A DNA stretch of 64,000 nt. Source: Gemmatales bacterium. GTDB taxonomy: Bacteria; Planctomycetota; Planctomycetia; Gemmatales; Gemmataceae. Numbering within the stretch: the first letter of the stretch is position 1; each line of letters opens with the position of its first letter. The position numbers and the translations under genes were made by a program. Location of the stretch: assembly GCA_026004675.1 (NCBI GenBank), contig BPJP01000001.1:930001-994000 (forward strand), read 5' to 3'. The notes beneath the pieces are model-generated. The model saw nothing but the letters and a program-made list of their open reading frames with translations, was not told the origin of the DNA and did no database searches. Below are positions 6,268-31,836 of this stretch, piece by piece.

Positions 6268-8046
6268 TTATGGCAACCCCAGTTCCTTGAGCTGTTTCGG
6301 GTCGACCGGTGCTGGCGCGCCGGTCATCAAGTCGCGGGCTTTTTGGTTCTTGGGGAAAGCGATGACGTCGCGGATATTGTTGGTGCCTGTCAACATCATG
6401 GCCCAGCGGTCCAAGCCGAGCGCGATGCCGCCGTGCGGCGGCGCCCCGTAGGTCAGAGCGTCAAGCAAGAACCCGAAGCGATTGCGGGCCTCTTCTCGCG
6501 ACATGCCCAGCAGTTGAAAGACGCGTTGCTGCACGTCGGGGCTGTGGATACGGATGCTGCCACCGCCACACTCGTCGCCATTGATGACCAGGTCATAGGC
6601 CTGAGACCGAACACTACCAGGGTCGCTCTCCAGTTTCTCCAGGTCTTCCTCGACCGGAGAGGTGAACGGATGATGGTTGGATACCCAACGGTTTTCCTCC
6701 TCGTCCCACTGGAAGAGAGGGAAATCGACGATCCAGGCGATTTTGAAGTCGCGTTTGGAAGGGTCGACCAGCTGCAGCAACGATGCCAGGTGCAAGCGAA
6801 GATTCGCCAGAGCCTGACAGACCACGCTTTCGCTGGCGTCCGCGACGATCAATAGCAGATCGCCAGGGGAGGCATCGAGACGTTGCCTTAGTTGTTGTTG
6901 GACTGGTGTCGGCAAAAACTTCTCGATCGGCGATACCAGCTTTTCCGCTTCCACCTTGATCCACGCCAGTCCCTTGGCGCCGTATGTTTTGACGAATTCC
7001 CCAAGGTCATCCAGGTTTTTTCGCGAGAACCTGGCGGCTGCTTGCCTGGCGTTCAAGCCGCGCACCTTCCCGCCGACCGCCAGGGCTGTTTTGAACACGT
7101 TGAAATCGGTGTCGGCTACGATGTCGCCCAAATCGGCAATCTCCATACCGAAACGCAGGTCGGGTTTGTCGGTTCCGAAGCGGAGCATGGCGTCGGCATA
7201 CGACAGCCGAGGCAACGGCAGGGGAATGTCAACGTCGAGACAGCGTTTGAAGACCGCAGCCGTCAGGCCTTCAATGACGGCAAAAAGATCATCGCGCTCG
7301 ATGAACGACATCTCCAGATCGAGTTGCATGAATTCGGGCTGCCGGTTGGCCCGCAGGTCTTCGTCGCGCAAGCAATGGGCCAGTTGATAGTACTTGTCGT
7401 AGCCGGCGATCATCAAAAGCTGCTTGTACAACTGAGGCGACTGGGGGAGAGCATACCAGCATCCCGGGAAAAGTCGGCTGGGAACCAGGTAATCTCGGGC
7501 CCCTTCCGGCGTGCTTCGTCCCAGCATCGGCGTTTCGACTTCGATGAAGTCCAAGGCATCGAGATAATCGCGTATGGCTTTGTTCATTCGATGCCTCATC
7601 AACAAACGCCTTTGCAGCGAAGGCCGGCGCAGATCGATGTAGCGATATTGCAGCCGCAATTCCTCGCCAGCCAACTCCTCTCCAGGAAATTCCGTGACTT
7701 CGAACGGTGGCGTCGGGCAGCGGTTGAAAATGACCATATCTTCGGCCCGCACCTCGATGGTTCCGGTCGCCAGATTGGGATTTTCCTTTCCTTCGAGCCG
7801 GCGCGTGACTTTGCCACGCACGCCGATCACGAATTCACTCCGCAGTTGCTGAGCCAAAGCAAACAACTCCGGATTGTCTTCCGGATGAAAAACGACTTGC
7901 GTGATGCCGTAGCGATCACGCAGGTCGACGAAGAGAAACACCCCGTAATCGCGGTAGGTGTTGACCCAACCATTCAAAACGACTGTCTGGCCGACGGCTG
8001 ACTCGCGCAGCTCACCGCAGGTGTGGGTGCGCTTGAAATTCGACAT
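6268..8046 (-). CDS. aspS: aspartate--tRNA ligase (AspRS), bacterial type
   Basis: Cytoplasmic enzyme that charges tRNA-Asp with aspartate. The 592 residues match the bacterial length and order: OB-fold anticodon domain (about 1-105; VVLNGWVNTYRDYGVFLF), class II catalytic core with motif 2 (CLRDEDLRANRQPEFMQLD), the bacterial GAD insertion (about 290-420) and motif 3 (GGIALGLDRWAMML). Substrate signatures TPEGARDYLVPSR and GGGSIRIH are present. The start was set at the ATG at 8046 (MSNFKRTHTCGEL), since residues upstream do not belong to the family. Some AspRS also charge tRNA-Asn; the sequence alone does not settle this. Confidence 0.97.
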   Translation of the reverse strand: MSNFKRTHTCGELRESAVGQTVVLNGWVNTYRDYGVFLFVDLRDRYGITQVVFHPEDNPELFALAQQLRSEFVIGVRGKVTRRLEGKENPNLATGTIEVRAEDMVIFNRCPTPPFEVTEFPGEELAGEELRLQYRYIDLRRPSLQRRLLMRHRMNKAIRDYLDALDFIEVETPMLGRSTPEGARDYLVPSRLFPGCWYALPQSPQLYKQLLMIAGYDKYYQLAHCLRDEDLRANRQPEFMQLDLEMSFIERDDLFAVIEGLTAAVFKRCLDVDIPLPLPRLSYADAMLRFGTDKPDLRFGMEIADLGDIVADTDFNVFKTALAVGGKVRGLNARQAAARFSRKNLDDLGEFVKTYGAKGLAWIKVEAEKLVSPIEKFLPTPVQQQLRQRLDASPGDLLLIVADASESVVCQALANLRLHLASLLQLVDPSKRDFKIAWIVDFPLFQWDEEENRWVSNHHPFTSPVEEDLEKLESDPGSVRSQAYDLVINGDECGGGSIRIHSPDVQQRVFQLLGMSREEARNRFGFLLDALTYGAPPHGGIALGLDRWAMMLTGTNNIRDVIAFPKNQKARDLMTGAPAPVDPKQLKELGLP

Positions 8047-20315: not shown

Positions 20316-20795
20316 ATGACCACGGTCAAGAAAACACATCCCCGGCTAGTGCTGAAGGCGGCGACGGCAGAGGATTTGATGACGCCCAACCCGTTGTCGA
20401 TTCGGCAAGATGCGGTCATCAAGGAAGCGGTCGCTTTTCTCACGGACAAGGGGATAACGGCGGCACCAGTGATTGACGATGCGGGCCGGCCTGTTGGGGT
20501 GTTGAGCAGGGCGGACATCGTGGTCCACGACCGTGAAAAGGTGGAATACGTTCCGGCTGCGGCCGATCGCTTCCAAAAGCCGGGCTTTCAAATCGAAAAC
20601 GTCGACCACACCAAGGTCGCCGACATCATGACACCGGTGGTGTTCTCGGTTGCTCCCGACACCAGTGCCAATCGAGTCGTTGAGGAAATGATCAAGCTCA
20701 AGGTGCATCGCTTGTTCGTCGTGGACGACGATGGCGTGCTGATTGGCGTGATTAGTGCGATGGACATTCTGTCGAGGCTGGAACTGGAAGAGTAG
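20316..20795 (+). CDS. CBS-domain pair protein
   Basis: The 159-residue protein consists of two CBS domains: the first with AEDLMTPNPLSIRQDA and GVLSRADIV, the second with VADIMTPVVFSVAPDT and IGVISAMDILSRL. Such stand-alone pairs bind adenine nucleotides and act as energy sensors. GAGGTGA precedes the ATG. A UspA gene follows 13 bases downstream, so the two form a stress operon. Confidence 0.92.
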   Translation: MTTVKKTHPRLVLKAATAEDLMTPNPLSIRQDAVIKEAVAFLTDKGITAAPVIDDAGRPVGVLSRADIVVHDREKVEYVPAAADRFQKPGFQIENVDHTKVADIMTPVVFSVAPDTSANRVVEEMIKLKVHRLFVVDDDGVLIGVISAMDILSRLELEE

Positions 20796-20808
20796 CGAGG
20801 AGGCTGAC

Positions 20809-21288
20809 ATGTTCGCGTTGAATACCATTTTGCATCCGACTGATTTTTCGGAGAGGTCGGACGTGGCGTTTCAGCTGGCCTCGTCGTTGGCGAAGGACCA
20901 TGGGGCGAAGCTGTTGGTGCTGCATGTCGTGCAGCCCAGGGCAGTGGCCTATGGTGAAGCCATCAGCGACCTGGCGTTGAAAGAGTGCATGGAAAAGGCG
21001 TGGCAAGACATCGAGCGTTACCGCGCGAAAGAGGGAAGTGGATTGGTCGTCGAGCACCTGGTCGAAGAAGGTGACCCGGCGACGCGCATTCTGCAAGTTG
21101 CCGCGGATCGCGGTTGCGATCTGATCGTGATGGGGACGCACGGTCGGCGAGGTTTGGCTCGTTTGCTGATGGGGAGCGTCGCCGAGCAGGTGGTGCGAAA
21201 GGCCCCGTGCCCGGTGGTGACGGTGAAGCAGCAATTCCCCGCGCAAACAGAGGAAGCAGCCAAAGCGGAAGCCGCGCAAGCGATGTAA
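20809..21288 (+). CDS. universal stress protein (UspA family)
   Basis: The 159-residue product has the Usp fold: ILHPTDFSERSDVAF at the start, LLVLHVVQP, and near the end the ATP-binding GTHGRRGLARLLMGS, which fits Gx2Gx9G(S/T), followed by APCPVVTVK. The start at 20809 has GAGGAGG upstream. It is 13 bases downstream of the CBS gene; CBS and Usp proteins often work as nucleotide sensors in the same stress response. Confidence 0.95.
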   Translation: MFALNTILHPTDFSERSDVAFQLASSLAKDHGAKLLVLHVVQPRAVAYGEAISDLALKECMEKAWQDIERYRAKEGSGLVVEHLVEEGDPATRILQVAADRGCDLIVMGTHGRRGLARLLMGSVAEQVVRKAPCPVVTVKQQFPAQTEEAAKAEAAQAM

Positions 21289-21406: not shown

Positions 21407-22348
21407 ATGCGACGAATTGGTTATCCGCTGCTTTGGTGGAGTTGGAGTTTTGTAGCGTCTGCCGTGCTGGCGCAGGGTGGAGCTGACTTCGAAGGGCATA
21501 CGGCACTGGTTTATGATTTGGCCTTCCATCCCGCCGGCAACATGCTGGCCAGCGCGGGTTTCGATCATACGATTCGTCTTTGGCAATTCCCGTCGGGCAA
21601 AGAGGTTCGCGTGTTGAAAGGCCATGTTGGGCCTGTTTACAGCGTGGCTTTCAGTCCCGACGGCTCGTTGCTGGCGTCGAGCAGCCACGACAAGATCATT
21701 CGCATCTGGAATCCGGGCGACGGTAGCTTGCTTCGCGAATTGAAGGGGCATACCAGCATCGTGGACGACGTGGCCTTCAGTCCTGACGGCAAGCTGCTGG
21801 CCTCGGCGAGTGCGGACAAGTCGGTTCGCCTGTGGAATCCAGCTGATGGTAGCGAGATCAAGACCCTCGGCAGCCATGACAAGTCGGCGTATGCTGTCGC
21901 CTTTAGCCGGGATGGAAAGCTTCTCGCTTCCGCGGGGGACGATGCCCTCGTACGCATCTGGGATGTGGGGGCCAGGAAACAGGTCCGCAGCCTTCAGGGG
22001 CACGGAGCGGCGGTGACGGGCGTCGTGTTTTCGGCGGATGGCAAACACATCTTCTCTATCGGTTTCGACCGGTACGTTCGCGTCTGGAACAGCGCCGACG
22101 GCAAACCTGTCAAGAAAATGGGGCCGACGCCTGATGACCTCTATGGCATCGCCCTGTCACGTGACGGGAAGAGTCTTGCTACCAGCGGCTACGCCGGCAA
22201 CATCTTCCTTTGGGATATTGCCGCCGGCAAACCTCTGAAGTCGTGGAAACTCAAATTCGGAGCCTATTGCATCGCCTTCTCGCCCGACGGCAAAAACCTC
22301 GTCACGGGACACGACGACCACCACTGCTATATCACGCCGATCCCGTAA
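21407..22348 (+). CDS. secreted WD40-repeat protein
   Basis: The 313-residue protein has a signal peptide (MRRIGYPLLWWSWSFVASAVLAQ) and then seven WD40 blades, seen as repeated VAFSPDGKLLASASADKSVRLW-type units with small changes. This is one complete beta-propeller, expected outside the cytoplasm. The strong blade-to-blade similarity suggests recent duplication. The ligand is unknown. Confidence 0.9.
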   Translation: MRRIGYPLLWWSWSFVASAVLAQGGADFEGHTALVYDLAFHPAGNMLASAGFDHTIRLWQFPSGKEVRVLKGHVGPVYSVAFSPDGSLLASSSHDKIIRIWNPGDGSLLRELKGHTSIVDDVAFSPDGKLLASASADKSVRLWNPADGSEIKTLGSHDKSAYAVAFSRDGKLLASAGDDALVRIWDVGARKQVRSLQGHGAAVTGVVFSADGKHIFSIGFDRYVRVWNSADGKPVKKMGPTPDDLYGIALSRDGKSLATSGYAGNIFLWDIAAGKPLKSWKLKFGAYCIAFSPDGKNLVTGHDDHHCYITPIP

Positions 22349-22546
22349 ATGTTCCAGATCGATCGATCCGATTCTGGCAGCCGAGCAAAAACGACTTTTC
22401 TTCTCGGACCGCAGCACCGATAAACGCTGAAGAAGCCTTAGCGAAGCCATTCTGTGTGCGCCATCGGCAAGAGTTTTCGATCTGGTTCGGCGTCCGGAAA
22501 CCCGAGTTGAAAACTAGAAGCAAACCCGAAACCGTCAGGCGAAGCG

Positions 22547-24286
22547 ATGGAACGTAATGATTGTGCGGGTCAAGAAAGGCCAGGCGTTTTTGCGGTCGAT
22601 GTGCAGTTGGGTTGCGACGCTTTGACCGACTCGCGGTTCGAACGGCCTTTGCGAGTCAATGTAAAAGCCGCCAAACTTTTGGTGAACGCTCCCTGGGTGC
22701 GAACGCTCGGGAAGCTGCAGATGGAGGTTCGCACGCAGGGGTGGAAATTCCCCATGCCTGCAGAAGCAGCCCCGATGACGATGCCGGTTCCCGCGGCGAC
22801 GAACAGCTCCGCTCGTTCCGCTGCTATTCGGAAAAAAGCGACCCGGCTGAAGCCGCCGCGCGAGACGGTGATGCTCAAGGAACGGCTGCTATACATGTTG
22901 CAGCCGCCGCTGGAAAACCTCTTTACCGGTCGCCAGGTTCTTTTACCGCTGAAGCCTTATCCGTACCAGGTCGAAGGCATAGCATTTCTGATGCCCCGGC
23001 ATTCGGCATTACTTGCCGATGAAATGGGTCTGGGCAAGACCATGCAGGCGATCGTTGCCCTGCGCTTGTTGTTCCATACGGGGTTGATTCGGCGTGCTCT
23101 CGTGGTTTGCCCCAAGCCTCTGGTCAATAACTGGTCGCGTGAATTGCAGGTTTGGGCCAACGACGTTCCCTTTGAAATCATCGGCGGGGACGTTGCTGCC
23201 CGAAGAGCGGCGTGGACTATTTCCAATACGCCGCTCAAACTCGTCAATTACGAAATGCTCACCCGAGACGCCGAGTTCGTCTGCGACGACCGGGTTCATT
23301 TCGATATCGTCGTCCTCGATGAAGCCCAGCGCATCAAAAACCGCACGTCGAAAACGGCTCAGGTGATTCGCAGTATTCGTCGGGAACGCAGTTGGGCCAT
23401 GACTGGAACGCCCATTGAAAACAAGCCGGAGGACTTGATCAATATCTTCGCTTTTGTCGATCCCGGCCGCATTCCGCCGGAAACACCAGCACATCGGCTG
23501 CCAGCCCTAACCTCCGATTCGATCCTGCGTCGTACCAAGGAAGACGTTTTGCCGGACCTGCCGGCAAAAACGATTCGCGATACTTATGTCGAATTGACGC
23601 CGGCACAGCGAGCGGCATATGAAATGGCCGAAAAAGAAGGCATCATCCGACTCAACCGCCTGGGGGACACCATCACGGTGCAACATGTTTTTGAGCTGGT
23701 CATGCGGTTAAAACAAATCTGCAATTTCGATCCGTTGACGGGAGAAAGCGCGAAACTGGAACAGTTGCAGGCCGATTTGGCGGAAGTGGCCGAAAGCGGC
23801 CGCAAGGCCATCATCTTTTCCCAATGGGTCGAGCCTCTCGAGTTTCTGGCCGAAGCGTTGAAACCGTTCGGCCCGCTGCAATTTCACGGCGGTGTACCAA
23901 CGCGGGAACGGCAGGCCGTGCTTGATCAATTCAAGCACGATCCGTCCAAACACGTTATTTTGATGAGCTACGGGACGGGCAGCGTGGGCTTGAATCTGCA
24001 GTTCGCCAATTACGTCTTCTTGTTCGACCGCTGGTGGAATCCGGCTATCGAGGACCAGGCGATCAACCGGGCACATCGCCTTGGACAGCGTGAACCGGTC
24101 TTTGTTTACCGCTTCATCGCTCAGGGCACGATTGAAGGCCGAATCGCCGAAGTCCTCGACCGCAAACGCCAACTCTTCAACGACATTATCGAGCAAAACG
24201 GACCGCCACCCAATCTCGGGCTTACCGAAGAGGAAGTGTTCGGGCTATTCGATATCCAGGCCAGACCCAAACGGCTGGCAGCATGA
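22547..24286 (+). CDS. SNF2-family DNA-dependent ATPase
   Basis: A 579-residue helicase-like ATPase. Motif I is DEMGLGKT, motif II LDEAQRIKN (DEAQ rather than DEAH), motif III MTGTPIENK, motif V about GTGSVGLNL and motif VI INRAHRLGQ; the last reads as in SWI/SNF remodellers. An N-terminal region of about 120 residues has no recognised domain. Bacterial members act on DNA-protein complexes such as stalled RNA polymerase (RapA); this one is shorter than RapA and lacks its added domains, so the target is open. Confidence 0.93.
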   Translation: MERNDCAGQERPGVFAVDVQLGCDALTDSRFERPLRVNVKAAKLLVNAPWVRTLGKLQMEVRTQGWKFPMPAEAAPMTMPVPAATNSSARSAAIRKKATRLKPPRETVMLKERLLYMLQPPLENLFTGRQVLLPLKPYPYQVEGIAFLMPRHSALLADEMGLGKTMQAIVALRLLFHTGLIRRALVVCPKPLVNNWSRELQVWANDVPFEIIGGDVAARRAAWTISNTPLKLVNYEMLTRDAEFVCDDRVHFDIVVLDEAQRIKNRTSKTAQVIRSIRRERSWAMTGTPIENKPEDLINIFAFVDPGRIPPETPAHRLPALTSDSILRRTKEDVLPDLPAKTIRDTYVELTPAQRAAYEMAEKEGIIRLNRLGDTITVQHVFELVMRLKQICNFDPLTGESAKLEQLQADLAEVAESGRKAIIFSQWVEPLEFLAEALKPFGPLQFHGGVPTRERQAVLDQFKHDPSKHVILMSYGTGSVGLNLQFANYVFLFDRWWNPAIEDQAINRAHRLGQREPVFVYRFIAQGTIEGRIAEVLDRKRQLFNDIIEQNGPPPNLGLTEEEVFGLFDIQARPKRLAA

Positions 24287-24591
24287 CGGGCTGCGGCCAT
24301 CGACCTCCCCCCTCTTTGGCAGCGATCGTTTCAGACAATCTTTCCCAAACGTTGACAATGGAAAAATCTATTTTTTTAAGCTTTCTGTCGTAATCCGTCA
24401 CAGCAGAACAAGTTACATCAAGACAAATTCCTGTTGCTCCAATTTTAGGGCTTCGCTATATTGTCGGCGGCTTTAATTCTACCCACGCCATTGCTCCTCG
24501 TCGCGATAGGGAGATCGCAGCTTGCCGCTTCCTCATCGTGGTGCTGGGACACGGTTGTCTTGGTCTGAATGCATCAACAAGGAGGCTAGCG
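24287..24591. other. 305-bp region before the CsrA-receiver gene
   Basis: No gene seen. It contains a promoter candidate and would give a 5' leader of about 200 bases before the CsrA-fusion gene. Confidence 0.5.
24352..24380 (+). promoter_or_regulatory. candidate sigma-70-type promoter
   Basis: TTGACA at 24352-24357 is a perfect -35 box; 17 bases later TTTAAG (24375-24380) matches four of six -10 positions. It faces the CsrA-receiver gene that starts 212 bases downstream. Confidence 0.45.
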
Positions 24592-25332
24592 ATGCTCGTC
24601 TTATCACGAAATGTCAATCAGCAGGTGGTTTTCCCGGATCTGGAAGTGGCGATCAAGATTGTGAAGGCGGAGCACGATCGTGTCAAGCTCGGTATCAAGG
24701 CTCCGTCAAATGTTCGTGTCTTTCGGGAAGAGTTGCTCGCGGCTAATCCGGAGTTGGCTGGCAAGAAGTCCTCACGTCACGAAGCGAGAAATTCGTTGAA
24801 CACGATCGCGGTCGGGCTGGCTTTATTGCGCCGTCAGCTCGAAGCAGCTGGCTGCCGGGACGCTCTGGCGACGCTAAATCGGATCGAAGACGAAGTGCGA
24901 TCGTTTTCCCGGCAAGAAACCGAGCAAAGCGGACAAAGCGAACCGCCCGCGAAATCCAAGAATCGGCAGCGCATGTTGCTGGTCGAAGACGATCAAAACG
25001 AGCGCGAATTGCTCGCCGGCTTTCTGCGCATGGCGGGCTTCGATGTCGATACGGCAGGCGACGGTACGGATGCCCTTGACTATTTGCGCGGCCATCTGCC
25101 TAACGCGGTCTTGCTCGACATGATCATGCCCCGCTGTGACGGCTTGACGACAGTGAAAAAGATTCGGGAACGTTATTCCCGAACGCAACTGAAGATTTTC
25201 GCTGTTACAGGGCATACGCCCGAAGAGTTGGGTTGCGTCGAGCAGCAAATCGGTATCGATCGATGGTTTCGCAAGCCGCTCGATCCTCAGCAGCTTCTGT
25301 CGACGCTGCGGAACGAATTGATCGTTGTTTGA
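24592..25332 (+). CDS. CsrA domain fused to a His-containing hairpin and a receiver domain
   Basis: The ATG at 24592 follows AAGGAGG. Residues 1-50 are a full CsrA RNA-binding domain: MLVLSR with Leu4 and Arg6, DRVKLGIKAP, and FREE with Arg45 at the RNA-contact site. Residues 61-108 form a helical hairpin starting SRHEARNSLNTIAVGLALLR, which mimics the H-box of a histidine-kinase phosphoacceptor domain (His63) but has no ATPase domain. Residues 126-244 are a receiver with Asp133/Asp134, phosphoacceptor Asp176 in VLLDMIMP, Thr206 and Lys228. All key residues are kept, so phosphorylation could control mRNA binding. CsrA normally is a 60-70-residue single-domain protein. The GGA in its own ribosome site could allow autoregulation. 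Confidence 0.93.
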   Translation: MLVLSRNVNQQVVFPDLEVAIKIVKAEHDRVKLGIKAPSNVRVFREELLAANPELAGKKSSRHEARNSLNTIAVGLALLRRQLEAAGCRDALATLNRIEDEVRSFSRQETEQSGQSEPPAKSKNRQRMLLVEDDQNERELLAGFLRMAGFDVDTAGDGTDALDYLRGHLPNAVLLDMIMPRCDGLTTVKKIRERYSRTQLKIFAVTGHTPEELGCVEQQIGIDRWFRKPLDPQQLLSTLRNELIVV

Positions 25333-25333
25333 A

Positions 25334-28300
25334 CTACGTGCCGCTGTCCGCCGGCATGGGCGAGGTGAGCAAGGTTTTCAACTCATCGATATCGACCGGT
25401 TTCACGAAATAGTGTTCGAAGCCTGTATCCCGGATCGCCCTGAAATCGTTCTCGGACGTGCCGTAGCCCGTCAGGGCGATCAAACGGATCGGTAGCTGCC
25501 GTTGCTTGACTTCGTGGGCCAGCTGGAACCCGTCCATTTCTGGCAAACCGATGTCCACAAGGGCGATATCGGGCTGCAGGCGTTCAATGGCTTCCAGTCC
25601 CTGGCGGCCGTCGGGAGCCACGAAAACGGTGAATCCTTCCAAACGCAACACCGAGGCAAGCATTTCCCGGCTATCGGCGTTATCTTCAATGATCAAGACG
25701 GTCGGGAAATTATCGCTGTTTACCTGCCTTTTGTCTGCCACTTTTTGTTCCGTCGGTTGCTTGTTCGTCAGCGGCAAACGCACTTCGAATCGGCTGCCTT
25801 GATTCGGACCTTTGCTATGCACGTGAATCGACCCTTTGTGCAGGCGCACCAGCGTGCGCACCAGCGTCAAGCCGATTCCCATGCCGCCGTCAGACCGGTG
25901 CAGGCTGCGTTCATTCTGTACAAAAAGATCGAATATCTTGCTTTGCATGTCGTGTGGGATACCGATGCCATTGTCGGTTACAGCGAAGAGTGCCTGTTTT
26001 TGATCAGCGGATAGCTCGACCCGAATATGGCCTCCTGGAGGCGTATACTTGGCGGCGTTGGTGAGCAGATTCAAACAGATTTGCAAGAGCCTGACCCCAT
26101 CTCCTTCCACTAGGATCGGCTTTTCGCTGATGGATGTTTCGAGGACGTGTTTGTTCCTGCTGATCAGTGGTTGGACCAGTTCCAGCGCATGGTGTGTGAT
26201 ATCCACCAGGTCGACAATCTCCTTGCGAATGTTGATTTTGCCTTGGGTAATACGGGAAACGTCGAGCAAGTCATCGAGCAGACGTGCCATGTGTTCGCAT
26301 TGCCGTTGGAGAACGTCGCAGGCTTTTCGCATCTCCGCGTTGTCACGGCAGTAATGGCTCAGCAGCAGCGAGGCGTTGCGAACGGCACTCAAAGGATTGC
26401 GCAGCTCGTGCGACAGCATGGCGAGGAATTCTTCGCGGCGACGGACCGCTTCCTGTGCTTTCAGTTCTGCTTTTTTCTGTTTGGTGATGTCCTTGGCTAT
26501 CGAAGCGATCGCCGATGGTTTTCCGTCTTCATCGCTCAACAGAGACAACGTTTCCAGCACAGGATGAGTGTGGTTCTTCTTGTCTCGGCGGACGCCTTCC
26601 ACGTTGCGGACGTGCTCGTTCTGCAGGCAGCGTTTGCGAAGTTTTTCCGCATGGGCATGGTAGGCAGGCGGAATCAACATGCTGATTTCCCTTCCGATCA
26701 GCTCTTCGCGCTCCCAGCCGTAGGCGCGAACCGCTTCCTCGTTGACGTCGATAATCCGGCCAGCCAGGTCTTCGATGATGATGGGATCGGCGGCATCTTC
26801 GAAGACTTTTGACAGCCGACGCAGTTTCGTTTCGGCCCGTTTCAGGGCGGAAATATCGATGAGCGTCAAAACCACGCCCTCGACTTTGGGGCCTGCATAA
26901 TAGGGCAGGATGCGCAGCAGGTAGTGATTGCCCTGGTGATCGCGCACCTCTTTTTCGATGGTTTGCTGTTGGTTGAGGACGTTCCGAATATCATCGATCA
27001 TGGTCGGATGTTCGATGGAATGGGAGAAGCTGTCGATGCGACGGCCGACGTCTTGAGGCAGGATCTGAAAAGTTTTGGATATTTGCGGCGTGAATTTGCG
27101 GATGCGCAACTCACTATCGAGAAAAATTGCCGCAACATCAGTCGACCGAAACAGGTTTTCCATATCATCCGTCAACTGGGTCAATTCGGCGATTTTGCGC
27201 TGGTACTCGGCGTTGACGGTATACAGTTCTTCGTTGACCGAGTGGAGCTCTTCGTTCGTGCTTTGCAACTCTTCGTTGGCAGCCACCAGTTCTTCGTTGG
27301 TCGCCTGCAGCTCCTCGTTGCTGGTTTCCATCTCCTCAATGGTTGCCTGCAAGCTTTCCTTGGTAATGCGCAGCTCGTTTTCGAGAGCCTCGATTTGTTC
27401 CTTCGCCGACTCGTCGACATGAAGGACATCGACCGCTTCCGTAGCGGAGGTTTTCGCTGCCTGAACATTTTCGAATATGACCAGATAATACCAGTGAATC
27501 GGGTCGTCATCCCGGCCGATAGGCTTGACGGTCAACTTGATTTGATCTTCCCGCCCATTGGTGCGAATACGTACGCCGGCATAGGTGACCGTGGTTCCCT
27601 CCTTTGCTACGCGTTGCAAGGCGCCGGAAAGACAGGTCCGCAGGTCCTTGTCCATATGGTCGAGCACGTCCCGGCTAATCCGCCCGTCGCGGATGGTAAG
27701 AAATCTGCCTGCACCGGCGAACGCGTGCACCAGTTCGCGCTGATGGTTGATCAGCAGACTGGGAGGGACGAATTGTTCCAAAAGGACATCATAAGCTCGG
27801 AGCAAGTTGCGGTCGACAAGAGGCGTACCGTTACCAATCCGCTGGGAGCCGCCGGGACGCAGGTCGCTGTAACCCGCGGACATTGGCAGCCTCATGTCGG
27901 CAGGGAGCCTGCCATCGCGCCGCTTGCGGAATATCTTCCAATGCCGGTCGATGACATCGAATTCATCGGCAAGCTCACTCGTCGATTCGCTCGGTCCCAG
28001 GAAAAGGATGCCATTGGTCTTCAAGCCGAAGTGGAACAACGACAAAACCTTTTTCTGGACTGCCTGCTCGAAATAGATCAGGAGATTTCGGCAACTGATC
28101 AGGTCGAGGCGTGTAAAGGGGGCGTCCTTGATCAGATTGTGCGGGGCAAAGACGACCATTTGCCGCAGCTCTGGCGATATCTGATAGCCATCGTCTTTTT
28201 TGGTGAAATACCGGCTCAGCCGCTCCGCTGACACCTCCGACAAACTGGCTTCGCTGTAGATGCCTGCGCTGGCGAATTCGAGCGACGCCCGGTGGACGTC

Positions 28301-29356
28301 GGTCGCGAATATCCGGACATTGATCGGTTGCTTTTTCGATGAAAGGTACTCGTGAAACAGGATGGCAATGGAATACGCCTCTTCTCCTGTCGCACAACCG
28401 GCCACCCACACGCGAATCTCTTGTTCCGGAGGTGTGCGATCGACGATTTCCGGAATCACATCTCGTCCCAGGCGTTCAAATGCCTCCCGGTCGCGGAAGA
28501 ACTTGGTCACGCCGATGAGGAGGTCATTGTAAAGCCTGTTGACCTCGACCGGATCGTTCCGCAAGCGTTCGACATACTCGCGCAGGCTGGGGATTTGCAG
28601 AAGTTGCAGCCGCCGTTCGATACGACGTTCAACCGTCGTAGGCTTGTAGTGCGTAAAATCGATGCCATATTCCCGGCAGAGTATCTGGAAAAGGTCCGCG
28701 AAATCATCCCCTTCGCCTGTCGCTGGTCTGGGTATTTCGATCTGGCCTTTGGCATGTTTGATAAGCACCTCGGGGATTTTGTGCGGCGGCAGGACATAGT
28801 CCACTTTGCCGGTGCGGATGGCCGCTTTCGGCATGCCGTCGAACCGTGCCGTCTCTTCGTCCTGCACGATAACCAGTCCGCCTGCCTCGTGGATATCGAC
28901 GATGCCGCGGGAACCGTCGCTGCCGCTCCCTGAAAGAATGATGCCAATGGCGTGTTCTCCAGAGTCTTGCGCCAAAGAACGGAAGAACTGGTCGATAGGG
29001 AGGGCCAGACCTTGCTTCGGGTCCTTGTCGGTCAACAGCAGCCGGCCATTGGAGATTACCATTTCTTTTTTCGGTGGGATCAAATAAACAGCATTGGGTT
29101 TCACCTCCATGCCGTCTTCTACGAGATAAATGGGCAGCTGCGTATGGCGAGCCAGCAGCTCGTTCATCATACTCTTGAAATCGGGGGACAAATGTTGCAC
29201 GACGATGAAGGCCATGCCAATGTCGGGCGGAATCTTGTCGAAGAGCTCTTCAAGAGCCTCGAGACCTCCTGCCGACGCCCCGATTCCCACGACGTAAAAG
29301 GCGTTCGTCGCCTCGGAAGAGGAGCCGGTCGTTTTCGATTGCATACGCCCGTCCAT
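25334..29356 (-). CDS. CheB-CheR-PAS-histidine kinase-receiver hybrid protein
   Basis: A 1340-residue cytoplasmic protein. In order: CheB methylesterase (about 20-210; GIGASAGG with Ser28, QHLSP with His55, [10 protein letters not shown]), CheR methyltransferase (about 220-500; [14 protein letters not shown]), a long coiled coil with repeated [10 protein letters not shown]-type heptads (about 660-740), two PAS domains (to about 985; the second with [16 protein letters not shown]), HisKA ([12 protein letters not shown]), HATPase ([20 protein letters not shown]) and a C-terminal receiver with [10 protein letters not shown]. This known architecture is found in sensor systems outside chemotaxis. 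It is convergent with the CsrA-receiver gene, the two stops being two bases apart. Confidence 0.95.
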
Positions 29357-29475
29357 GATTGGATTCCCTTTATTCCAGACCGAAATAGCGGTTGTCGGTG
29401 AGGGAGAGCAAATACCGTTCCAGAAATTCAGGTCTATTGTCTTTGCCTCAACCCGCTGTCTCCAAACAAGTTCCG

Positions 29476-29552
29476 ACTTCGGTCCGAAGTTATTGCTGGA
29501 TGGTTATGCCAATTGAGGACAACCAAAACGATTGGTCATGCCAACTTGGCAT
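29476..29552. promoter_or_regulatory. two 15-bp palindromes, operator candidates
   Basis: ACTTCGG-T-CCGAAGT at 29476-29490 and ATGCCAA-C-TTGGCAT at 29538-29552 are both perfect 7-bp arms around one base, with centres 62 bp apart. They differ in sequence, so they may be sites of two regulators. They lie 120-200 bp upstream of the giant kinase gene. Confidence 0.5.
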
Positions 29553-29696
29553 CGTCGGCAACTCTTTTTGTGAAAAACCAATAGTCGAATCACAAAGCTC
29601 AATTGTCAATGATTTTCTGATCAAGCTTGAATCGCCCTGCCACCGATTCTGAAAGCCGCGTCAGCGCCCAAAGCGGAGCATCAAGTCATCAGGTCC

Positions 29697-29725
29697 TTGT
29701 ATTCGGAACAAATGTGCCCTACAAT
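29697..29725 (+). promoter_or_regulatory. weak promoter candidate for the 29912 gene
   Basis: TTGTAT (29697-29702) and TACAAT (29720-29725) are spaced 17 bases. The -10 box matches five of six positions, the -35 box three. The next start codon is 187 bases downstream. Confidence 0.3.
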
Positions 29726-29911
29726 CGGGGCTGGGCGATGTGCAGGTTTGGCTCTGTTTCGAACCGATGCACGAGCAGGTGCGAGCAGAATCACCAAATG
29801 CGTTCGACGTATCTTGTCTTTTTATGCACAGCAGCAGGAAATTCGAATGCGGAAAGGGGGTGAAGCCCGGTCTGGACCGTTCCTGACGATACGACAAGAA
29901 AAGGAGTGAAC

Positions 29912-30259
29912 ATGGACAACACTAATGTTTTGGTAACGGCGATGGCTGAGAAGTGTCGGGAATTGATTAGGGATTGGAGCGGTCCGCCCATTGATCTGCC
30001 CGAGCCCCTTGAGCCGGAACACCTCATTTGGATGTGCGAAATCATCGAGAAAAACGCGGACGAGTGGCCTGCAACGAAACTACACCGATGGATCGGGTTT
30101 GTGCAGTGCGCCATGATAGCAAACCGGATGTTGGATCTGTCTGACGCGAAGGCGATGTTCAACAACGCCAAGATCGCCCACAGCGAAAGCAGTGAAGACG
30201 AGTTGGATCATCTCGATCCGGCAAATGTATTCGAGTTGGATATAGGAGGCGAGGGCTAG
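29912..30259 (+). CDS. small acidic protein of unknown function
   Basis: The ATG at 29912 has AAAAGGAG upstream, a strong ribosome site. The 115-residue product is helical and acidic, with HLIWMCEIIEKNADEWPATKLHRWIGFVQ in the middle and a very acidic end (SESSEDELDHLDP). No family was recognised. It stands alone between two intergenic regions. Confidence 0.75.
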   Translation: MDNTNVLVTAMAEKCRELIRDWSGPPIDLPEPLEPEHLIWMCEIIEKNADEWPATKLHRWIGFVQCAMIANRMLDLSDAKAMFNNAKIAHSESSEDELDHLDPANVFELDIGGEG

Positions 30260-30495
30260 ATTCGACGAGGATCAACCTGGGTTTCGGTTGCGGATGGCGT
30301 GGAAGATCAGAGCAAAAAAGTGGATGGCACTTCTGAGGGGTTTTCTGGTTCTCTGTTTTCTGATTGACCTTTCTCCGGCAGCGCTTAGTTGATAATTTAT
30401 CTATTCTCCCTTTTCACGCAAATTGCCGACGCGGCAGAATTTTGTCCAGCCCGGAGGCGATTGCGTGATGGTCTCCAATTCCGAGGTGAAAAGCG

Positions 30496-31836
30496 ATGAG
30501 TACGGTTGAGCCGATGCTGATCGACGTTCGAGCCCTGCTGGTGGAACGGGACGAATGCGATGCGGGAACGGTACAGAAACTGCGTGAAGCCCTGGCCCAA
30601 GGGCGTTCGCAATACAAAGCGCTGCGCGATGCCACCGAGATACTGAAGAACAAAACGGAGACGGCGACAGGTGCGCAGGCGAAACGGTACCATCTCAAGC
30701 TCGGGATTGCCCAATACTTTCAAGGGTACCTTGGGCAAGCGATCGAGAATTTGAAACAGGCGGAAGGAGCGCTGGCGAACTATTATCTCGGCCGGGCCCT
30801 TGCCGAGCGCAAGGAGTTCGACGAAGCTCTGAAGGCGTTCGAGCGAGCCGAGAAGCTGGGTTACACCGCCAGCCAGGTGCAACTGCAACAGGCCGGCATT
30901 TATCGGCAGATGGGAGACATCGAACGAGCCAAGTCCATACTTAGCCGATTTGAGAAAGAAGCCAGCCACACCGCTGAATACCACTTCCAGCTGGCATCGT
31001 GCCTGCTTGAAGAAGGCGAGCGGGCAGAAGCGATTCGCCACTTCGAACGGGCCGTGGAACTCGATCCAGGGCATGCCGGGGCATTGTTCCAGCTGGGGCA
31101 TGCCAATGATTTGGCAGGTAACGACGAGGAAGCTATCAACTATTATGAGCGCTGCCTGAATTATCCCCCTGTTCACATGGGAGTGTTGATGAATCTGGGC
31201 ATTCTCTACGAAGATAACGAAAAATACGACAAGGCGGTTGAATGTTTTCGCCGAATTCTCGCCGTGAAACCAGTCGACGAGCAGGCCAGGTTGTTTTTGA
31301 AGGATGCCGAAGCCTCGCAGACGATGTATTACAACCCGGAAGAAGAGAGCGCGTTCAACCGCTTCAGCCAGGTGTTGGAGATTCCGGTCACGGACTTCGA
31401 GCTGTCGGTTCGCAGCCGCAACTGCTTGAAGAAAATGAATATCCGAACCCTGGGCGACTTGACCCGCTGCTCCGAACAGCAACTGCTGGCCAGCAAGAAC
31501 TTCGGCGAAACGTCGCTCGAGGAGATCAAGGAATTGCTGGCCTCGAAAGGGCTTCGCCTCGGTCAATCACTTGAAGACGGCGGGAATGAAATCCGCTTTC
31601 GTCCGCAGCAACCCTTGTCTCCTGAAGAACAGGCGCTATTGAACAAGCCCGTCAGCGACTTGAATTTGTCGGTGCGGGCACGCAAGTGCATGAATCGCCT
31701 TGGCATCACGACGTTGGGTGAGTTGATCCAACGCACGCCGGATGAATTGCTCGAGTCGAAAAACTTCGGCGTAACCTCCCTGAACGAGGTTCGGGAAAAA
31801 CTGGCAGCCTTGGGATTGGCGTTGCGGGGCGATTAA
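30496..31836 (+). CDS. TPR protein with two C-terminal RNA polymerase alpha-CTD domains
   Basis: The ATG at 30496 follows GAGGTGA. Residues 65-275 are about six TPR units (GHAGALFQLGHANDLAGNDEE, LMNLGILYEDNEKYDKAVE). Residues 297-356 and 385-444 are two copies of the alpha-CTD: DFELSVRSRNCLKKMNI, NFGETSLEEIKELL; and DLNLSVRARKCMNRLGI, NFGVTSLNEVREKL. The Arg that contacts UP-element DNA (E. coli R265) is kept in both (Arg306, Arg394); N268 is kept only in the first (Asn309) and is Lys in the second; K298 is Thr in both. The remainder of RpoA is absent. It could bind DNA or contact the polymerase as a regulator. Confidence 0.9.
   Translation: MSTVEPMLIDVRALLVERDECDAGTVQKLREALAQGRSQYKALRDATEILKNKTETATGAQAKRYHLKLGIAQYFQGYLGQAIENLKQAEGALANYYLGRALAERKEFDEALKAFERAEKLGYTASQVQLQQAGIYRQMGDIERAKSILSRFEKEASHTAEYHFQLASCLLEEGERAEAIRHFERAVELDPGHAGALFQLGHANDLAGNDEEAINYYERCLNYPPVHMGVLMNLGILYEDNEKYDKAVECFRRILAVKPVDEQARLFLKDAEASQTMYYNPEEESAFNRFSQVLEIPVTDFELSVRSRNCLKKMNIRTLGDLTRCSEQQLLASKNFGETSLEEIKELLASKGLRLGQSLEDGGNEIRFRPQQPLSPEEQALLNKPVSDLNLSVRARKCMNRLGITTLGELIQRTPDELLESKNFGVTSLNEVREKLAALGLALRGD

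Follow-up and report, generated by a model that had tools for sequence, protein, structure and literature searches.

Classically, antagonist small RNAs or FliW set the activity of CsrA, and a hybrid histidine kinase normally depends on a phosphotransferase to signal to a regulator that is a separate protein. In the BarA-UvrY-CsrB-CsrA cascade, a histidine kinase governs CsrA output (PMC7652899). Both translational repression by CsrA and autoregulation of csrA are expected to involve GGA-loop sites over the ribosome-binding site (RBS) (PMC7652899). Precedents for DHp-type phosphotransferases are ChpT and Spo0B, of which ChpT links a hybrid kinase to a response regulator (PMC3433190). A 2006 classification of response regulators, as cited in PMC2222644, places CsrA beside ANTAR among the RNA-binding output domains; since it is cited as naming CsrA among the outputs, the combination of CsrA with a receiver is already on record.

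Here we analyze a gene from a Gemmatales bacterium that encodes a CsrA domain, a DHp-like hairpin and a receiver in one chain. The gene lies in a stretch of 64,000 nucleotides (hereafter, the window). Its product is probably an RNA-binding response regulator with CsrA as output, phosphorylated by the adjacent hybrid kinase in a relay via His63 that alters the grip of CsrA on RNA. A literature search that covered mainly open-access papers returned no functional study of a CsrA-receiver fusion and no report of its DHp hairpin, kinase linkage or leader hairpins, which counts as weak evidence.

Domain architecture and distribution of the fusion

Translation of 24592-25332 yields a stop-free product of 246 residues, with the following features.

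24592-25332, + strand: CsrA-DHp hairpin-receiver fusion gene, 246 aa (single frame; Pfam CsrA and Response_reg; 145 clean full-length relatives)
24592-24741, + strand: CsrA domain, residues 1-50, with Leu4, Arg6, Val43 and Arg45 (PF02599, 54 bits)
24748-24927, + strand: two-helix DHp-like hairpin, residues 53-112 (AlphaFold2 helices, hhalign, Pfam HisKA)
24778-24780 and 24790-24792, + strand: hairpin codons for His63 and Asn67
24970-25320, + strand: receiver domain, residues 127-243 (PF00072, 75 bits; Foldseek)
25117-25119, + strand: codon of the receiver phosphoacceptor, Asp176

The original prediction held that CsrA and a receiver are fused in one protein, and this is borne out: both Pfam domains are found in a single frame and exceed their cut-offs (CsrA, residues 1-50, 54 bits versus 27; Response_reg, residues 129-239, 75 bits versus 30.2). 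The stand-alone CsrA equivalog TIGR00202 covers residues 1-49 only and scores 48.4 bits, under its cut-off of 70.1, and the fusion protein shows no Pfam match to HATPase_c or Hpt (PF01627). Because AGGAGG (24580-24585) lies just 5′ of the CsrA ATG, an upstream GTG start at 24538 is not preferred. In an AlphaFold2 model built from 42 sequences (mean pLDDT 88), CsrA strands are followed by long helices at 53-84 and 88-112 and then by the receiver; with a pTM of 0.56, the placement of the domains relative to each other is unreliable. Foldseek searches with the whole model returned receivers only, the best matches being CheY4, RR468 and Spo0F.

Elsewhere in the window, a TPR protein (30496-31836, + strand) ends in two RNA polymerase alpha C-terminal domains, an unusual combination (PF03118, two stretches, 149 bits). 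A CBS-domain protein gene (20316-20795, + strand) overlaps or abuts a universal stress protein gene (20755-21288, + strand), and the two probably form a stress operon.

A search for homologues with CsrA and Response_reg in one protein found many that carry both in a single frame, and full-length matches are spread over numerous genomes of this class. The same domain order occurs in 145 distinct full-length relatives from independent assemblies, complete genomes among them, and all those with a named source are planctomycetes. This recurrence refutes the view that the gene is an assembly join, a frameshift or a chance adjacency of two genes, which we regard as next to impossible: nothing about the window copy speaks for an artefact, and among the relatives one copy (L040) has a disrupted reading frame. 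Scanning a set of 84,980 species, each represented by one genome, gave 80 loci, with planctomycete carriers that include Stieleria, Blastopirellula marina, Gimesia, Rhodopirellula, Bythopirellula and Lacipirellula; at three loci from other phyla only the receiver part matches. Because the scan relied on a single peptide pattern from the receiver, it could miss fusions elsewhere whose receivers differ. By an alignment-based search, about a quarter of the genomes of the class (Planctomycetia, 102/398) carry the fusion, as do 25 of the 95 genomes of the window's own family; the same approach on a phylum sample gave 16 positives among 392 genomes, all inside the class. Searching plasmids by tblastn returned receiver-type noise only.

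Apart from the acidic pair, every residue originally singled out in the three domains, namely Leu4, Arg6, Arg45, His63, Asp176, Thr206 and Lys228, is present in the window protein, and conservation was checked across homologues as proposed. Among 97 members, CsrA retains R6 in 96, R45 in 95 and L at position 4 in 86; the hairpin retains H63 in 91 and N67 in 85; and the receiver retains Asp133, Asp176, Thr/Ser206 and Lys228 in all 97. The receiver is thus complete in its Asp, Thr and Lys, as predicted, with one correction: the acidic pair is Glu132/Asp133 instead of Asp133/Asp134. E or D at 132 plus D at 133 is found in 97/97 members, and position 134 varies (D, N, Q, E or M). Within one chain, the RNA-binding, putative phospho-His and phospho-Asp sites are thus each constrained.

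One relative genome carries two fusion copies (6343-7098 of locus L037 and 1501-2235 of locus L017). One of its copies has a degenerate CsrA with Cys replacing Arg6 and Arg45; the other has an intact CsrA and no hairpin histidine. This looks like a division of labour. In the copy at L196, the hairpin is nearly missing and the receiver follows close after CsrA; other members have lost the histidine only.

The DHp-like hairpin and the adjacent kinase

The hairpin was originally described as kinase-like. To the extent that it carries an H-box His63, on the first helix of an antiparallel pair, and resembles DHp domains this stands; kinase activity does not, because the fusion has no HATPase domain. 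In single-sequence Pfam searches, HisKA was the family that matched the most members among 30 hairpins, although the matches were weak (6/30, best 3.2e-4) and the window hairpin gave none. We then aligned a profile of the hairpin family to a DHp profile built from the neighboring kinases of the fusion loci. In this single comparison, hhalign gave a probability of 96 and an E-value of 2e-9, with His63 aligned to the phospho-His of the kinases and Asn67 four residues further on, at H+4. After column shuffling, none of 100 profiles scored as high (best 16 versus 41), and a reversed profile gave no match. Searching PDB sequences with the hairpin profile produced no significant match, and a fold search with the isolated hairpin model returned generic helical hairpins without singling out kinases, with nothing below E 0.001 (best E 0.86, for CsoR; HK853 ranked 32). 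Since the isolated hairpin gave no significant structural match, the case for homology rests on sequence profiles, by which the hairpin resembles a DHp-type phosphotransfer or dimerization unit.

Adjacent to the fusion gene, and convergent with it, is a kinase gene.

25334-29356, − strand: CheB-CheR-PAS-HisKA-HATPase-receiver hybrid kinase, probable partner (Pfam; linkage in relatives)

Whereas the original prediction dispensed with a two-component system, a probable histidine kinase partner is encoded next door. Among 130 clean loci whose flanks were long enough, 89 have a histidine kinase core within 700 nt of the fusion, most commonly a CheB-CheR-kinase-receiver hybrid; about one third lack a kinase next to the fusion. 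The two genes occur in convergent, codirectional and divergent arrangements, with the kinase upstream or downstream and on the same or the opposite strand, which indicates that linkage has been kept through rearrangement.

Of the 34 HATPase_c matches in the genome that contains the window (6.03 Mb), only 6 are followed by a receiver in the same frame, whereas 83 clean members of the fusion family adjoin a complete kinase that ends in a receiver. No Hpt domain (PF01627) was found in this genome (91% complete), several hybrid kinases notwithstanding, and no FliW. It has six CsrA-domain genes, the fusion plus five others. The CheB beside the fusion is the only one in the genome; across the window's own family, CheB is far commoner than the fusion (74/95 versus 25/95 genomes), making their phyletic co-occurrence uninformative.

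Leaders of the fusion genes

Two elements of the window leader recall CsrA sites.

24577-24585, + strand: RBS inside a CsrA-consensus-like ACAAGGA (AGGAGG at 24580-24585; from sequence)
24503-24518, + strand: upstream hairpin GCGAT-AGGGAG-ATCGC with GGA in a six-base loop, a candidate second CsrA site

The window ACAAGGA matches the ACARGGA core of the CsrA SELEX consensus, RUACARGGAUGU (PMC7652899). Many relatives have a short stem over the RBS that closes a loop, for example AAAGGAGA or ATGGAGA, and the stems themselves differ (GGG/CCC, CTCG/CGAG, GTTGG/CCAAC, AAGAA/TTCTT). The window leader, unlike these, has no stem around the RBS. Its predicted whole-leader fold is not unusually stable (z −0.34), and the 24503-24518 hairpin was not selected in that fold.

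Watson-Crick stems of at least 3 pairs are present in 57% of 93 family leaders versus 15% of 325 control leaders from the genome. The control starts were chosen mechanically and carry little Shine-Dalgarno signal, and hence the shuffle and slide controls weigh more. When 3′ flanks were swapped among relatives, stems dropped to 38% (sd 4, maximum 52%). Covariation across 90 leaders was 0.311 versus 0.185, and 0/500 shuffles reached the observed score; one caveat here is that related sequences can inflate this test. When the register was slid, slide 0 beat all others in both paired cells and covariation score. Hairpins with a GGA loop and at least 5 pairs also occur further upstream, in 50% of family leaders versus 20% of controls. 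For the adjacent kinase genes, leader hairpins are at control level (16%). An A lies two positions before GGA in 91% of family leaders, resembling the ANGGAN loops that RsmE recognizes (PMC7652899). Scanning 22000-30500 against Rfam returned nothing, including no CsrB-type RNA. Judged from these sequence patterns, the simplest reading is that CsrA, via the fusion itself or a paralogue, represses translation from the leader, which suggests autoregulation.

Proposed phosphoryl transfer and relation to known systems

We propose that the adjacent hybrid kinase would autophosphorylate and then phosphorylate the receiver at its own C-terminus. From there the phosphoryl group would move to the fusion, first to His63 in the DHp-type hairpin and then to Asp176 in the receiver. 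This would make a His-Asp-His-Asp relay across two genes, with His63 as a probable relay station; direct transfer to Asp176 would be a simpler route. Because CsrA domains and DHp domains alike form dimers with two-fold symmetry, a rearrangement of the receiver and four-helix bundle would alter binding by the paired CsrA sites. Driven by phosphorylation, such a rearrangement may change, in one direction or the other, the binding of GGA hairpins in mRNAs, the fusion's own leader included.

The main rival holds that the hairpin is a dead DHp remnant that serves as a dimerization spacer only, with the kinase phosphorylating Asp176 directly and His63 idle. Members that lack His63 retain Asp176 and Lys228, indicating that the histidine is dispensable for receiver function. 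Some adjacent kinases have no receiver, and the acidic residue that active kinases typically have at H+1 is not conserved in the hairpin, as this rival would have it. Against it, His63 and Asn67 are among the best-conserved hairpin residues while flanking residues vary, which is not what a mere spacer would show. Moreover, most adjacent kinases have a C-terminal receiver and would need an HPt, and the window's genome shows no PF01627 match. We consider the spacer explanation unlikely, if worth keeping in mind. Members without His63 bear on the same question: 0/12 adjoin a hybrid kinase (Fisher 4e-6, raw), with the qualification that the losses amount to some four events on the tree and give 3 phylogenetically independent pairs, too few for significance. 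Alternatively, the main role of the hairpin might be that of a phosphatase acting on the fused or partner receiver, or of a place where that receiver docks, setting signal lifetime with no relay. The H+4 position of HxxxN serves HisKA phosphatase reactions, and Asn67 occupies it in 85/97 members; the conserved His suits a relay equally well, however, and we judge this role improbable.

That phosphorylation directly controls RNA binding, as originally predicted, is the most likely of the readings considered, and it is strengthened by the hybrid-kinase linkage together with the CsrA-type leaders. More tentatively, and with somewhat less than even confidence, we suggest that the locus encodes a His-Asp-His-Asp phosphorelay ending on mRNA: a Csr switch of two genes that needs no small RNA and combines a CheB-CheR hybrid kinase, a built-in DHp-derived phosphotransferase and self-repressing translation, in a genome without canonical HPt. 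If phosphorylation control is correct, the fusion family probably places CsrA under direct phosphorylation, with mRNAs regulated without the usual small RNAs. This would explain how one of several CsrA proteins is controlled in a lineage without FliW and a genome without Hpt. Kinase and fusion would form a compact two-gene system, in which phospho-control of mRNA binding is testable in vitro.

Compared to CsrA/RsmA regulators, the fusion has the same N-terminal CsrA fold and RNA-contact residues, and the leaders of many of its relatives likewise have GGA-loop sites over the RBS. It differs in the added hairpin and receiver, in a conserved FP motif (Pro15) that replaces the usual loop residues, and in a setting without FliW in the genome or a CsrB-type RNA in the region scanned with Rfam. 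Like the ANTAR regulators AmiR, EutV and PdtaR, it couples a receiver to an RNA-binding domain that the receiver would control; unlike them, its output is CsrA and N-terminal, with a DHp hairpin between output and receiver. With ChpT and Spo0B it shares a two-helix hairpin, a phospho-His motif and expected dimerization into a four-helix bundle, but it has no degenerate ATPase domain and is joined to its own receiver and RNA-binding domain. The proposed control of CsrA by a histidine kinase parallels the BarA-UvrY-CsrB-CsrA cascade, except that the fusion joins the receiver to CsrA itself and the transcription factor and small RNA steps would be unneeded.
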